Under the pieces are notes generated by a model that did not search any database, had not been told where the DNA came from, and saw only the letters and a program-made list of their open reading frames with translations. This document shows, one piece after another, positions 7,675 through 51,728 of a DNA stretch of 64,000 bases (position 1 is the stretch's first letter; the number at the start of each line of letters is the position of its first letter). A program made the position numbers and the translations under genes. The DNA lies in assembly GCA_017640605.1 (NCBI GenBank), contig JAEPQH010000002.1, forward strand, positions 124,001 through 188,000. Direction: 5' to 3'. This stretch comes from Balneolaceae bacterium. Lineage in GTDB: Bacteria > Bacteroidota > Rhodothermia > Balneolales > Balneolaceae.

Positions 7675-9183
7675 ATGTGGAGAAGAACCTCACTTAGTTG
7701 GGTGATGGTGTTATTCAGTGTTTTCACTGCGTATGCACAGCCTGTGTTAACGCCTCAAAATGTGGCCCTTGGAGGTGGTGGAAGCACCTACATTACCGAT
7801 TATAATGCCAATTTTTATAATCCGGCGAATTTGTTCATTCCTGATCGCATCCGAACCATAGACGTTGGCTTGGCTATAACAGGTACGTACTTCAATGGAG
7901 TGCAGAATTTCAGTGATCTCAACGAACAACGGTCTAACCTCGAAAATTATCTGTATGCTTTTCAACCCGGTGCTTATGCTATCACTTCGGCCGACAGAGC
8001 TGAGATTCTAGACGAAAATTATATTCGAAACCGAACTACTTCCTTACATCAAACGCGGCTTGAAGCAACTCTACTCGGTTTTAAAATCAGGAATGATCGT
8101 CGTGCTATTTCTTTCGCCATCAGAAACCGAATAGCTTCTTCTTTTGAAGTTGGCAGAGGGTGGTATTCTACCGAAACACAAACTGTGGATAATCAAACTA
8201 TACTCGATCGTACCTTAAAGCATAGGTATCAATCGTTGTATGAAGTTTCGATTGGCTTTGCCGAATCTTTCCAGTTCTTTTCTGATATGACCCCTCGTCT
8301 TGATGAACTTGCCATTGGCATTGCTCCTAAATTTGTAATTGCCGGTGCCTATCAAAATGCAGTTTGGGAGAATCAATTTGTTCAACAAAACAACGGTAGT
8401 GTTAATCAGATTCAGAATTTTGAATATGCTGCAACCGGCACGTTTGCCACAGCCACTGATGAATACCTTAACGGAGTTCCGGCCCAACAAGCATTAACTT
8501 CTAATATTACCGACGAGCTTTTCAACCCACAGGGATTTGGTGGCGGACTAGATCTTGGATTAACCTATTTAATCACCTTAGGTAGTGATTTTTCTACGCT
8601 AGAGAATACCGATCAAAGAACTCAAAAATCACTACGTGTATCTTTTTCTATCACAGATATCGGTTTTGTAGTGTATGATCAATCAGTTGAACTTGGTATT
8701 AATACCGATACTTCTAATGCGTCTACATTTCCAACCAATGTGTCTTCAAATGCCTTTGTTGGAGCGCCGGGACAGTTCATCGATTTTGTAGATCAGTTTT
8801 CAACAAGTAACCCTTTCGCAAGTGCATCAAAAGTGGGTGGTTCTAATTTTGTACTTTTACCAACAGCACTACATACAGGGATTTTGTTTGAAGTAAATCG
8901 ATTAAAACTTATGGGCGACTTGAGTTTTGGGCTCACAAATAATGCCTACAATTCTACAAAGTTAGTTGCCTCTGCCGGAGTTGAAATCCGACCACTGAAA
9001 TTTTTACCATTAAGGGCAGGTACGCAGTTAGCAACCGAATTGCCAAATTACTTCAGCTTTGGGGCTGCCATCGAAACTAAGCTATTGGACTTATCCATTG
9101 CAAACCAATTCGTTTCTCGAACTTTCAACGAAAACCCAACGTTATCAGGGATAACAGTGGCTGCATTGCAATTTCATTTTTAA
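7675..9183 (+). CDS. Secreted outer-membrane beta-barrel protein, unknown role
   Basis: The protein has an N-terminal signal peptide (RRTSLSWVMVLFSVFTAYAQ, cleaved near residue 21). A mature part of about 480 residues is rich in alternating hydrophobic strands. An early NANFYNPANLFIP segment resembles the opening strand of FadL/PorV-like and DUF5723-like barrels in Bacteroidota. The last residues (TVAALQFHF) end in an aromatic, as outer-membrane barrels do. It lies 24 bp after the helicase gene. I cannot name a substrate or family with confidence. Confidence 0.7.
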   Translation: MWRRTSLSWVMVLFSVFTAYAQPVLTPQNVALGGGGSTYITDYNANFYNPANLFIPDRIRTIDVGLAITGTYFNGVQNFSDLNEQRSNLENYLYAFQPGAYAITSADRAEILDENYIRNRTTSLHQTRLEATLLGFKIRNDRRAISFAIRNRIASSFEVGRGWYSTETQTVDNQTILDRTLKHRYQSLYEVSIGFAESFQFFSDMTPRLDELAIGIAPKFVIAGAYQNAVWENQFVQQNNGSVNQIQNFEYAATGTFATATDEYLNGVPAQQALTSNITDELFNPQGFGGGLDLGLTYLITLGSDFSTLENTDQRTQKSLRVSFSITDIGFVVYDQSVELGINTDTSNASTFPTNVSSNAFVGAPGQFIDFVDQFSTSNPFASASKVGGSNFVLLPTALHTGILFEVNRLKLMGDLSFGLTNNAYNSTKLVASAGVEIRPLKFLPLRAGTQLATELPNYFSFGAAIETKLLDLSIANQFVSRTFNENPTLSGITVAALQFHF

Positions 9184-9242
9184 CTGACAGATTGCCCGTC
9201 TCATTTGGCAGATTCCGATTATTTGTCGGCATAGTTATTGCA
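9184..9242 (+). promoter_or_regulatory. Candidate sigma-54 promoter with upstream TGACAG-type repeats, driving lon
   Basis: CGGCAT-AGTTA-TTGC at 9227-9241 matches the -24/-12 consensus TGGCAC-N5-TTGC at 8 of 10 positions. The GG and GC are separated by the required 10 nt. The implied transcription start is near 9253, about 50 nt before the lon ATG. Upstream, CTGACAGATT (9184-9193) and TTGGCAGATT (about 9205-9215) form an imperfect direct repeat about 22 bp apart, which could be an activator site. No CIRCE element is visible. The assignment rests on pattern only. Confidence 0.4.
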
Positions 9243-9304
9243 CAAAAAGCTTGGCTTTGTATTTGCCAACTCATAGGAAAATAAACAGAGAAGAAAATTA
9301 CTTA

Positions 9305-11800
9305 ATGAAATCACGTTTTACTTTAGACAATCAGCTTGGGCGAGCAGACGACGCATTCGAAGATTTTGAGCAAGCAATCCCGCTCATGTCAGAAGAGGAA
9401 GAGAAAGAGCTCACCGAATCGATTGTTCCCGACTCATTACCAATTCTACCCCTAAAAAATACTGTATTATTTCCCGGAGTTGTTGTTCCTATTACTGTTG
9501 GCAGAGACCGATCGCTTGCTTTAGTAAAGGAAGCGTATGCCGGTGATAAAATAATCGGTGTGGTTACCCAAATCGATGAAGAAATTGAAGAGCCATCCTA
9601 TGGCGATTTACACAAAATCGGTACAGTTGCTCAAATCCTGAAGCTTATCAAAATGCCGGATGGCAGCCGTAGTATTGTAATTCAGGGTAAATCGGTATTT
9701 GAAGTGGAAGAGTTTACTCAAGATCAGCCCTACTTCAGAGCTACCACGAAAAGCTACCCACGTGAAATGGATATCCAGGGATTGGAACTAAGTGCTTCCA
9801 TCCGAAATGTGAAAGAAACGGCGGTTAATATCATAAACAAATCGCCGAATATTCCTTCCGAAGCGGCCATTGCTGTAAATAACATTAACAGCCCGATATT
9901 TCTACTCAACTTTATTGCCTCGAATTTAAATGTAGATATCGACGACAAACAGGATTTGCTGGAAACTCAAAAATTCTCTGATAATCTTGATAAAATCATG
10001 GAGTTTCTCGAGCAGGAACTTCAGGTTCTGGATATGAGTGAGAAAATCCGCACTAAGGTAAAGTCTGACATCGACGACCAGCAGCGCGAATTTTATTTAC
10101 GCCAGCAAATGAAAGCCATTCAGGAAGAGCTGGGTGAAGATGCAGAACAACAGGAAGTTGAAAAGTTACGCGAGAAACTAGCATCAAAAAAACTGCCGGA
10201 TTACGCCCGGGAAGTCGCCGAAAAAGAGTTAGGAAGATTAGAAATGACCCCTAACGCTTCCCCAAACTATGGCATCATCTACAGTTATGTAGAATGGATT
10301 ATTGATCTGCCTTGGGATGAATACTCGGAAGACAAACTCGATCTGGAATTTGCCCGCAAAGTATTGGATGAAGATCACTACGGACTCGAAAAAGTAAAAA
10401 AGCGCATCATAGAATATTTGGCCGTACTAAAGCTAAAGAAAGACATGAAAGCGCCTATTCTTTGTTTTTATGGGCCTCCGGGCGTTGGTAAAACTTCGCT
10501 TGGAAAGTCGATTGCACGTTCACTAAACAGAGAGTTTGAGCGATTTAGTTTAGGTGGAATCAGAGATGAAGCTGAGATTCGAGGTCATAGAAGAACGTAT
10601 ATTGGTGCGCTACCGGGGCGAATAATCCGCTCTATGAAAAAAGCCGGTAAAGGAAATCCTGTAATAATGCTGGACGAGATTGATAAGGTTGGTTCTGATT
10701 ATCGAGGCGATCCAACTTCTGCCCTGCTTGAGGTTTTAGATCCTGAACAAAATGATACCTTCAGCGATAACTATCTGGAGATTGAATACGATTTATCTAA
10801 AGTGATGTTTATTGCTACGGCAAACTCACTGGAAACCATTCCTGCTCCCCTTCGTGATCGAATGGAAATCATTAATATTAGTGGATACACGCTCGAAGAA
10901 AAAACCGAGATTGCTAAAAATTATCTCATCCCAAAACAGATAAAGGAAAACGGTTTAACAGAAGAGCAAATCAGCATTGATGATAAAGCGATAACACGTG
11001 TAATAGATCAATATACCAGAGAATCCGGTGTACGAAACTTAGATCGGCAAATTGGATCAGTGTGCAGAGGTGTGGCAGCCAAAGTGGCTTCCGGAGAAAT
11101 TGAATCATTTACCGTTTCGGAAAAAGACGTTGAAGAATTGTTGGGTAAACAAAAATTCTTCAGCGATGTTGCAGAACGCACAACTGTACCGGGAGTGGCA
11201 ACCGGACTCGCATGGACCCCATTTGGTGGAGACATCCTCTTTATCGAAGCAAGTGTTTCAAAAGGAAGTGGAAAACTGAATATCACCGGTCAGCTTGGTG
11301 ATGTAATGAAAGAATCGGCAATGCTGGCGATTTCATATTTAAAAGCTCATGCCGGTGAAATTGGAATTCCCGAAGAAGCCTTCAAGTACTGGGATTTACA
11401 CATTCACGTACCTGCGGGTGCAGTTCCAAAAGATGGTCCTTCGGCTGGTGTATCACTGCTTTCTGCCATTGCTTCAATCTTTACGCAGCGTAAAGTTAAA
11501 GGCACAATTGCACTTACCGGAGAAATCACATTACGTGGCTTAGTGTTGCCGGTTGGTGGAATCAAAGAAAAAGTACTGGCTGCAAAACGTGCGGGAATTA
11601 CAAAAGTGCTTTTACCTAAGAAAAACGAAAAAGACGTTGCTGAAATTGAAGCTGATGTGATCGGAGATCTTGAGGTAGAATATCTGGAAAGAATGTCTCC
11701 CCTTCTCGATATCATTCTTGACAAAGAAGCAGTTCGCGATCCAAACGAATACTTTAAAGTTAGTGACGAGCACAAGCAGACCGTAAAGAAGAAAAAGTAA
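9305..11800 (+). CDS. lon: ATP-dependent Lon protease
   Basis: Lon is a cytosolic AAA+ serine protease that degrades misfolded and regulatory proteins. From the ATG at 9305 it has 831 aa. The LAN substrate-binding domain begins at LPILPLKNTVLFPGVVVPI. The AAA+ module carries Walker A GPPGVGKT at 390-397, Walker B MLDEIDKVG and the arginine-rich EAEIRGHRRTYIGA loop. The peptidase domain has the catalytic serine in DGPSAG (Ser713) and the lysine in GGIKEK (Lys756), the expected 43-residue spacing. A TTG at 9251 in frame lies inside the predicted promoter, so the ATG is chosen. A strong terminator follows. Confidence 0.97.
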   Translation: MKSRFTLDNQLGRADDAFEDFEQAIPLMSEEEEKELTESIVPDSLPILPLKNTVLFPGVVVPITVGRDRSLALVKEAYAGDKIIGVVTQIDEEIEEPSYGDLHKIGTVAQILKLIKMPDGSRSIVIQGKSVFEVEEFTQDQPYFRATTKSYPREMDIQGLELSASIRNVKETAVNIINKSPNIPSEAAIAVNNINSPIFLLNFIASNLNVDIDDKQDLLETQKFSDNLDKIMEFLEQELQVLDMSEKIRTKVKSDIDDQQREFYLRQQMKAIQEELGEDAEQQEVEKLREKLASKKLPDYAREVAEKELGRLEMTPNASPNYGIIYSYVEWIIDLPWDEYSEDKLDLEFARKVLDEDHYGLEKVKKRIIEYLAVLKLKKDMKAPILCFYGPPGVGKTSLGKSIARSLNREFERFSLGGIRDEAEIRGHRRTYIGALPGRIIRSMKKAGKGNPVIMLDEIDKVGSDYRGDPTSALLEVLDPEQNDTFSDNYLEIEYDLSKVMFIATANSLETIPAPLRDRMEIINISGYTLEEKTEIAKNYLIPKQIKENGLTEEQISIDDKAITRVIDQYTRESGVRNLDRQIGSVCRGVAAKVASGEIESFTVSEKDVEELLGKQKFFSDVAERTTVPGVATGLAWTPFGGDILFIEASVSKGSGKLNITGQLGDVMKESAMLAISYLKAHAGEIGIPEEAFKYWDLHIHVPAGAVPKDGPSAGVSLLSAIASIFTQRKVKGTIALTGEITLRGLVLPVGGIKEKVLAAKRAGITKVLLPKKNEKDVAEIEADVIGDLEVEYLERMSPLLDIILDKEAVRDPNEYFKVSDEHKQTVKKKK

Positions 11801-50357: not shown

Positions 50358-51728
50358 TTATCGCTCGATGTTATACTTTTTCATTTTATTGTACACATGA
50401 CTTCGTTGCAAACCGATGGTTTCTGCCGTTTGAGAAATATTCCAGTCATGTTTTTCTAATTGCTGTTTCAAAAATAAGCGTTCTGCTGATTCTTTAAATA
50501 ACTGAAAATCATTTTCAGCGTGTACCAATTCTGTTAAATCACTTTTTTGGTTCGAAGATGGCTTTAGAATGGTATGAATCAACTCTTCGGTAATCTCACC
50601 GTCGCTGGAAAGTATTGCAAGGCGTTCGATTGTATTCTGAAGTTCACGAACATTACCGCTCCAACTCCGGTCTTGTAAGGCGTTTAATGCCCCACCTGAC
50701 AATGAAATATTCGAAAAGCTGATGTCATCGTTCTGAAGTTTAGTTAGCCATGCTTTTGCAAGAGCCGGAATATCCTGCTTTCGTTCATCTAATGGAGGTA
50801 TCTGAATTGGGATTACTCCAATTCTGTGGTAGAGATCTTCACGAAAATTCCCTTGTTCTATTTCTTCTTCCAGTTTCTTATTGGTTGCCGCAATTACGCG
50901 TACATCTACATCTATTACCTCAGCCCCACCCACTCGGGTAATTTGCTGTTCTTGCAATGCACGTAATAGTTTTGCTTGTGCTTCCAACGGCATATCACCG
51001 ATTTCATCAAGAAATAGGGTTCCGCCATCGGCTAATTCAAACTTTCCTTTTCTTTGTTGATGCGCGCCGGTAAATGCTCCTTTTTCGTGCCCAAAAAGCT
51101 CACTTTCAATCAAATCCGGTGGAATCGCTGCACAATTTACATCGATAAAGTTTTCCCCTTCTCTTGGGCTTAATTCATGAATCCAACGTGCCACTAATTC
51201 CTTTCCGGTCCCATTTGCTCCGGTTATCAATACTCTAGATTTAGTCGGAGCTACCTTTTCTATCAGATTTTTGATTCGATTGATCGCTGCACTTTCACCT
51301 AAAATGGGAGGTAATTTGGGCAATCGCTCTTTCATCTTGGTGATTTTTCTGTTCAGCGATTCCTGAGAAAGAGCGTTTCGAGTAGCTAAGAGTAATCGAT
51401 TTAAATCCGGTGGTTTTTCCAGAAAATCGAAGGCTCCATATTTAGTGGCTTCTACAGCAATCTCGATAGTGCCATGACCTGATATCATAACAACGGGAAT
51501 TTCACTTCCGGTTTCTCTGAGCTTTTTTAAGGTTTCCAGGCCATCCATCCCCTTCATCTTTATATCCAGAAACATCAAGTGGATGGTTTCTTTAGCAATA
51601 ATCTCTAGCGCTTCGGCGCCACTTTCTGCTGTGGAAACGGTATATCCTTCAAATTCAAGGATTTCTTTTAGCGTTGATCGAATTGCCCGTTCGTCGTCAG
51701 TAACGAGAATATGTGCTTTATTTGCCAT
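50358..51728 (-). CDS. Sigma-54-dependent response regulator (NtrC/AtoC type)
   Basis: The protein has 456 aa in three parts. The receiver domain has phospho-acceptor Asp55 in LMFLDIKMKGMDG, with DD at 11-12 and EKP at about 103. The AAA+ domain has Walker A GANGTGKE near residue 170, the sigma-54 contact loop GAFTGA in ELFGHEKGAFTGAH, and Walker B GGTLFLDEIGDM. The C-terminal Fis-type helix-turn-helix reads NISQTAETIGLQRSHVYNKM. No histidine kinase is adjacent, so its sensor is unknown. It shows that the cell has a sigma-54 system, consistent with the promoter seen before lon. Confidence 0.95.
   Translation of the reverse strand: MANKAHILVTDDERAIRSTLKEILEFEGYTVSTAESGAEALEIIAKETIHLMFLDIKMKGMDGLETLKKLRETGSEIPVVMISGHGTIEIAVEATKYGAFDFLEKPPDLNRLLLATRNALSQESLNRKITKMKERLPKLPPILGESAAINRIKNLIEKVAPTKSRVLITGANGTGKELVARWIHELSPREGENFIDVNCAAIPPDLIESELFGHEKGAFTGAHQQRKGKFELADGGTLFLDEIGDMPLEAQAKLLRALQEQQITRVGGAEVIDVDVRVIAATNKKLEEEIEQGNFREDLYHRIGVIPIQIPPLDERKQDIPALAKAWLTKLQNDDISFSNISLSGGALNALQDRSWSGNVRELQNTIERLAILSSDGEITEELIHTILKPSSNQKSDLTELVHAENDFQLFKESAERLFLKQQLEKHDWNISQTAETIGLQRSHVYNKMKKYNIER

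Follow-up and report, generated by a model that had tools for sequence, protein, structure and literature searches.

The window analysed here, a stretch of 64,000 nucleotides (positions 124,001 to 188,000, forward strand, of contig JAEPQH010000002.1, assembly GCA_017640605.1) from a marine Balneolaceae bacterium, carries the gene of the ATP-dependent protease Lon. Between lon and the DUF5723 gene upstream of it lie a sigma-54-type -24/-12 element and several predicted activator sites (Table 1). A TTG-started frame at 9251 is also listed for lon; this start is disfavoured because the relatives show in-frame stops 5' of the ATG. Sequence comparison strongly supports sigma-54 control of lon, which a preliminary description had proposed, but through a different element (TGGCTTTGTATTTGC, 9252-9266) that lies 25 nt downstream of the one named there (CGGCATAGTTATTGC) and had been overlooked. 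Overall, we consider it quite likely that lon is transcribed from the promoter at 9252-9266 as part of a proteostasis regulon governed by an enhancer-binding protein at CTGAC-N5-GTCAG-like sites, with the protein P0003 as its best candidate.

Table 1 Features of the lon locus and the sigma-54 activators considered.
Feature	Coordinates	Strand	Remarks
lon, ATP-dependent protease Lon	9305..11800	+	831 aa; 832 codons including stop; ATG at 9305
DUF5723 outer-membrane-type protein gene, upstream neighbour of lon	7675..9183	+	stop codon directly adjoins activator site A
Predicted activator site A, CTGACAGATTGCCCG	9184..9198	+	53 nt before TGG; resembles CTGAC-N5-GTCAG-type sites of relatives
Predicted activator site B, right half TTTGGCAG (9204-9211)	9197..9211	+	40 nt before TGG; weaker, one half, less in phase
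Predicted activator site C, palindrome CCGAT-TATTT-GTCGG	9215..9229	+	22 nt before TGG
-24/-12-like site of the preliminary description, CGGCATAGTTATTGC	9227..9241	+	probably not a promoter; overlaps site C
Putative sigma-54 -24/-12 element of lon, TGGCTTTGTATTTGC	9252..9266	+	GG 9253-9254, N10, GC 9265-9266
Predicted transcription start	9278	+	12 nt past the C of the -12 GC; 27-nt leader; from sigma-54 geometry
Receiver-type (NtrC-like) sigma-54 activator	50358..51728	-	Response_reg + Sigma54_activat + HTH_8; not the best lon candidate
Candidate activator P0003, receiver-less, PspF-like	G000:C25:20753-22060 (outside the window)	-	beside lptE

Related lon genes were gathered from whole genomes (56 of 58 matched) and from named contigs (80 loci, which put the window in Balneolaceae). 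Loci repeating another's last 60 nt upstream were removed and L106-L144 were treated apart, leaving 70 distinct upstream regions. TGGCN7TTGC occurs in 51 of these, against 0.4 on average and never more than 2 in 200 dinucleotide shuffles; TGG[CT]N7TTGC occurs in 56 and, with TTG only at -12, in 65, the element being undetected by this loosest pattern in the remaining five (L063, L093, L096, L099 and L156). When the spacer of TGG[CT]-N(k)-TTGC was varied from k=3 to k=12, only k=7 was enriched (56 of 70, against at most 2 at any other k), and this spacing yields the GG-N10-GC geometry of sigma-54. The window holds seven matches to TGG[CT]N7TTGC, of which that of lon stands just before the conserved gene start and one other lies 63 nt 5' of a 262-codon frame. 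Transcription of lon is accordingly predicted from the element's geometry to start near 9278 and not 12 nt after 9241. A structured RNA leader was considered and set aside, as no Rfam match at E<=0.1 was obtained in 8900-9500.

The same geometry recurs outside the order. The pattern TGG[CT]N7TTG was found in 29 of 37 lon regions taken from Rhodothermales, Flavobacteriales and other Bacteroidota, and no other spacer gave more than 4; the -12 is mostly TTGA, TTGT or TTGG. A phylum-wide draw of dnaK loci, from which 2 of 29 were dropped for want of a recognisable start, gave TGG[CT]N7TTG within 260 nt in 13 of 27 regions (at most 4 at other spacers).

Genome-wide, two sigma-54 patterns gave 24 and 15 matches at 37 distinct places, and their reversed controls 19 and 13; with counts so near the controls, most of the matches are taken as background. 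The intergenic matches less than 100 nt before a start fall at nine genes, eight of them of proteostasis (names from reading the translations): lon, ftsH, grpE, the hsp20 gene before dnaK, a second hsp20 gene, clpC, hslV, a groES-like gene and one ABC exporter. The organism's own groESL carries TGGTACGGAACTTGC. The preliminary description had suggested that other heat-shock genes be searched for the arrangement seen at lon, and it was indeed found at hsp20-dnaK, groESL, grpE-dnaJ and ftsH. TGG[CT]-N7-TTGC is present in 12 of 15 hsp20-dnaK, 8 of 15 groES, 7 of 10 ftsH and 8 of 14 grpE regions, no other k from 3 to 12 giving more than 2. Scored by genome, the hsp20-dnaK site is kept in 13 of 15 (10 of 10 Balneolaceae), the grpE site in 9 of 14 scored genomes (8 of 8 scored Balneolaceae) and the ftsH site in 7 of 10 scored genomes (7 of 9 scored Balneolaceae; G036, G037 and G039 were left out of this count), while groES carries TGG[CT]N7TTG[CT] in 9 of 9 Balneolaceae. 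In the scoring that covered grpE, ftsH, hslV, clpC and the groES-like gene, 5 of 73 loci had no alignable start and were left unscored (L287, L289, L295, L296 and L297).

Membership of clpC and of the groES-like gene was rejected, their sites being conserved only in the genus and in at most one further genome. The latter gene (L019, G000:C14:53161-53526) encodes a 123-aa GroES-like protein apart from groES; it is present in most relatives, but only two genomes, both of the genus, have its sigma-54-like site. Upstream of clpC (L231-L247) a block of its own, TTTGC-TTTAC ... TACTACxTTCG ... GAACTAA, recurs across genera, unlike the sigma-54 genes, and looks like a housekeeping promoter joined to an unknown GAACTAA motif. 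The ABC exporter, MsbA-like by eye (L031, G000:C27:252007, minus strand), is preceded by TTGGCATTATATTTGC, which lies 28 nt from the start, and by an TGATTGGTAG unit upstream; it is a possible further member of the regulon. A second Lon-like protein, 28-40% identical, was also seen in many genomes of other families of the order, the Balneolaceae genomes being without it.

Upstream of the site it named, the preliminary description had pointed to an imperfect repeat that could bind an activator, and its repeat-like units CTGACAGATT, TTTGGCAGATT and TTTGTCGG do lie within 9184-9229, the interval of the three predicted sites. Site C, at 22 nt, stands one helical turn farther upstream than the position met most often, 12. 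In the lon regions, 15-mers resembling CTGAC-N5-GTCAG occur 12-73 nt upstream of the -24. On a scale to 10, the best 15-mer averages 7.93 at lon, 8.0 at hsp20-dnaK and 6.1 in shuffles, the score being clearly highest when the spacer is 5; groES and ftsH (7.0 each) also exceed the shuffles. Of the half-sites CTGNCA/TGNCAG, 65 lon regions have 143 (15 expected), 29 lon regions from other orders have 19 (3.9 expected) and 13 phylum-wide dnaK regions have 23 (1.5 expected). Site distances at lon peak at 12, 22, 32, 43, 52-53 and 72-73 nt, and this period of about 10 nt is expected for proteins bound on one face of the DNA. A single composite pattern uniting activator site and -24/-12 was discarded as too strict: it gave one match, before an hsp20 gene, and missed lon. 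For the upstream gene, the palindrome of site C (CCGATTATTTGTCGG, 9215-9229) additionally scores as a weak hairpin resembling a terminator.

The genome encodes a single, full-length RpoN with its activator-interacting (AID), core-binding and DNA-binding domains all present. Among the matches listed, three true enhancer-binding proteins are found in the genome, two of them with receiver domains. One of these two is the window's own activator, cited in the preliminary description as a sign that sigma-54 is in use; it is a real activator, with receiver, AAA+ and Fis-type helix-turn-helix (HTH) domains, but belongs to a clade different from that of P0003.

The AAA+ domain of P0003 begins at residue 12; a lid comes next, then a linker, part of which is conserved, and finally a Fis-type HTH. 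It matches PF00158 (Sigma54_activat) with 232.9 bits, carrying the Walker A motif GESGVGKD and the loop GAFTGA, and HTH_8, a putative DNA-binding domain, with 50.1 bits. No Response_reg match was obtained in it, so the receiver of NtrC-type activators is not seen. The gene is followed by lptE and then by a TPR-like gene. Orthologs were detected in 17 of 17 genomes tested. In four reduced genomes, G017, G022, G031 and G033, the receiver-less activator is the only PF00158 match at E<=1e-30 among the matches listed, these genomes being 87-96% complete, so that a second activator may have been missed. Relatives of P0003 in four distant genomes (G059, G077, G080 and G083) stand in the run miaB, activator, LptE-like, TPR-like, secG, groES, groEL, as read from the translations. 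Three of these four neighbour genes were placed in a tree (that of G059, L378, was not included) and join the P0003 clade with support 100/99, the window's activator falling in another clade. The HTH stretch SERTLYRK is identical in near and far orthologs, in keeping with a half-site common to the relatives. From these observations we infer that the receiver-less protein beside lptE is the acting activator, as the best candidate at hand.

Two further observations concern this gene. Its orthologs (L211, L305, L306, L309-L314, L378, L406 and L407) have the loop GAFTGA, GSFTGA or GAYTGA and keep the HTH, and tandem repeats (frame QKPETRN...) occupy L213:9939-10324 (G000:C25), near the end of its contig. 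P0003 resembles PspF in being an AAA+ activator with a Fis-type HTH and without a receiver, and the PspF model matches its residues 12-429. It departs from PspF in a score of 297.9 bits, below the equivalog cut-off of 443.55, in a linker of about 100 residues that joins AAA+ to HTH and contains a conserved, helix-like part, and in its proposed targets, which are proteostasis genes and not psp.

To our knowledge, rpoH is absent from Bacteroidota. The hrcA gene was found in 0 of 35 Balneolaceae, the present genome included, and in 15 of 23 other genomes of the order. The controlling inverted repeat of chaperone expression (CIRCE) was likewise detected in none of the 9 groES regions from Balneolaceae, and in 4 of the 6 from elsewhere in the order. 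No CIRCE was seen in the organism's own groESL locus, and no CIRCE core occurs anywhere in the window, in agreement with the preliminary description. Within the order, groESL (L226, L328-L341) is of either CIRCE type or sigma-54 type, tracking the presence or absence of hrcA; in one exception, G035, hrcA is present and the CIRCE pattern was not found at groESL. On this distribution of hrcA and CIRCE, control of groESL appears to have switched from repressor to sigma-54 or the reverse. HrcA/CIRCE probably controls groESL in the related families, acting as a repressor, whereas the system proposed for Balneolaceae works by an activator. Both states also appear in a phylum-wide draw of 16 groES regions (2 of the 16 loci had no recognisable start): the CIRCE core is present in 10, a TGGCAC-type element without CIRCE in 3 (G058, G063 and G068), and two weak TGGT matches that occur together with CIRCE look fortuitous.

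At the level of sequence, the -24/-12 element with its fixed spacing, the common activator sites, rpoN and a conserved activator can be regarded as established. Building on these, sigma-54 RNA polymerase would hold a closed complex at 9252-9266, and the receiver-less activator, bound at 9184-9229, would hydrolyse ATP to open the promoter, with transcription beginning near 9278. The enhancer-binding protein would sit on a single face of the helix, from 12 to 73 nt upstream of the -24, and lon would be one member of a sigma-54 proteostasis regulon together with hsp20-dnaK, groESL, grpE-dnaJ and ftsH. Because the activator is without a receiver domain, its activity would probably be set by a bound inhibitor (a chaperone or a Psp-like protein) or by the linker, and unfolded protein could titrate the inhibitor away and bring about heat-shock induction. 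The signal, whether heat or misfolded protein, and the inhibitor partner are our conjecture. A wider proposition, that one receiver-less PspF-like activator beside lptE is the master of the sigma-54 heat-shock regulon across Balneolota and Bacteroidota and has wholly replaced HrcA/CIRCE in Balneolaceae, we regard as evenly balanced.

Several observations weigh against the regulon as drawn here. The sigma-54 consensus alone is near background genome-wide (24 against 19; 15 against 13), and the region counts include related genomes, hence they are not independent. The 15-mer score at grpE (6.1) does not rise above the shuffles, ftsH has few half-sites, and site conservation is weak at hslV (5 of 17), clpC (4 of 16) and the groES-like gene (2 of 11). 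In the g28 lineage, which belongs to another family, the lon site is missing from G047, G050 and G056 and reduced to a distant match in G052; G052 has the receiver-less activator despite having no proper lon site, and in G047 (88% complete) the sole activator found belongs to the receiver type and is a different protein. Activator and lon site are therefore not cleanly lost together across genomes.

Among the other explanations, a pair of promoters, sigma-54 for induction and an unseen housekeeping promoter for basal lon expression, is a possibility that we hold only tentatively. Two promoters are common for essential or near-essential stress genes, and clpC keeps a separate conserved upstream block; at lon, no second conserved block is seen between the activator sites and the ATG, and a scan of the plus strand, for sigma-70-type sites only, found none, so that a sigma-70-type promoter on that strand was dropped as a candidate. 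It is improbable that sigma-54 acts here through a histidine-kinase-driven receiver-type activator, be it the one at 50358-51728 or that on contig C33. Such activators are widespread in these genomes, among the matches listed, and one of them is the only activator found in G047. The four genomes with receiver-less activators only (again among the matches listed) nevertheless have lon regions, their own or those of their genus, with the element or its TTGT variant, and it is the relatives of the receiver-less protein that adjoin groESL in other Bacteroidota. On the grounds of its separate clade and of these four genomes, the window's activator was rejected as the lon regulator.

It is very doubtful that the TGGC...TATTTGC block of lon is instead a Bacteroidota housekeeping promoter (-33 TTTG, -7 TAnnTTTG). 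The TATTTG of lon does look like a -7 box, and a TTTG lies some 30 nt upstream in several lon regions. The full TAnnTTTG, however, is absent from the lon consensus TGGCTnnnTATTTGC and from the elements of ftsH, groES and hsp20-dnaK, which have in common only TGGC/T and TTGC at a fixed spacing; it was not found in the consensus elements of the five operons. Moreover, in Flavobacterium psychrophilum, where mapped starts were sorted into both promoter types, lon is of the sigma-54 type in the available text (PMC9723704). As for the site named in the preliminary description, 9227-9241, we find it hardly credible as the lon promoter: its sequence is present with the correct GG-N10-GC geometry (GG 9228-29, GC 9240-41) plus TTGC, it does precede the lon ATG, at 63 nt, slightly more than the roughly 50 nt given there, and the sister genome G001 has a similar site in the same place, but its frequency is at chance level (with up to one mismatch, 2 in the window against 3.3 expected; for YGGCAYN5TTGC across the 3.74 Mb of the genome, 24 as against 19 with the pattern reversed), just 2 of the 70 distinct lon upstream regions have it, which belong to one genus and include that of G001, its CGGCAT starts inside palindromic site C so that its "-24" falls on an activator half-site, and a better element, shared across genera, lies 25 nt farther downstream.

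Sigma-54 control of lon together with chaperones is already in print for F. psychrophilum and predicted for Bacteroidota. Lon corresponds to COG0466. A survey with position-specific scoring matrices predicted sigma-54 promoters, in the text available, for GroEL, IbpA, GroES, GrpE, DnaJ, DnaK and protease groups including COG0466, enriched in Bacteroidota classes and Planctomycetota (PMC12316311). The available text of that survey has neither of the strings Balneol- and Rhodotherm-, and gives no upstream activating site or assigned activator. In F. psychrophilum, mapped starts of sigma-54 type (motif SM4) are reported at groESL, lon, dnaK, grpE-dnaJ, htpG and clpB; as far as the available text goes, three activators are stated and none is assigned to these promoters, nor is a binding site, and ftsH is missing from the printed selection (PMC9723704). 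The same text lists a sigma-54 activator gene by lptE, with a promoter of the other type and with locus numbers adjoining groESL (PMC9723704). F. psychrophilum belongs to a different phylum in the NCBI taxonomy, which has Balneolaceae in Balneolota, and the flavobacterial lon -12 in the records examined is mostly TTGA/TTGT, not TTGC. Among the search results from the open-access literature, no title or displayed abstract named an activator of these genes. In Myxococcus xanthus, a lon gene, lonD, is reportedly activated on heat shock by the two-component, NtrC-like HsfA/HsfB; that system differs in its receiver-type activator and in concerning one gene. What is added here is the Balneolaceae case, a candidate activator and its predicted binding site, of which no mention was found in the available text of those two papers.

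Textbook heat-shock control relies on a repressor or on a sigma-70-family alternative factor, and a sigma-54 regulon of chaperones and Lon would follow a different logic: activation has to be driven by ATP, which calls for a sensor acting upstream of the AAA+ activator. With one gene and one DNA site named by comparison, the question of who activates such promoters in Bacteroidota, and of how stress is sensed, becomes directly testable. Within one order, groESL carries CIRCE in some families and sigma-54 elements in another.

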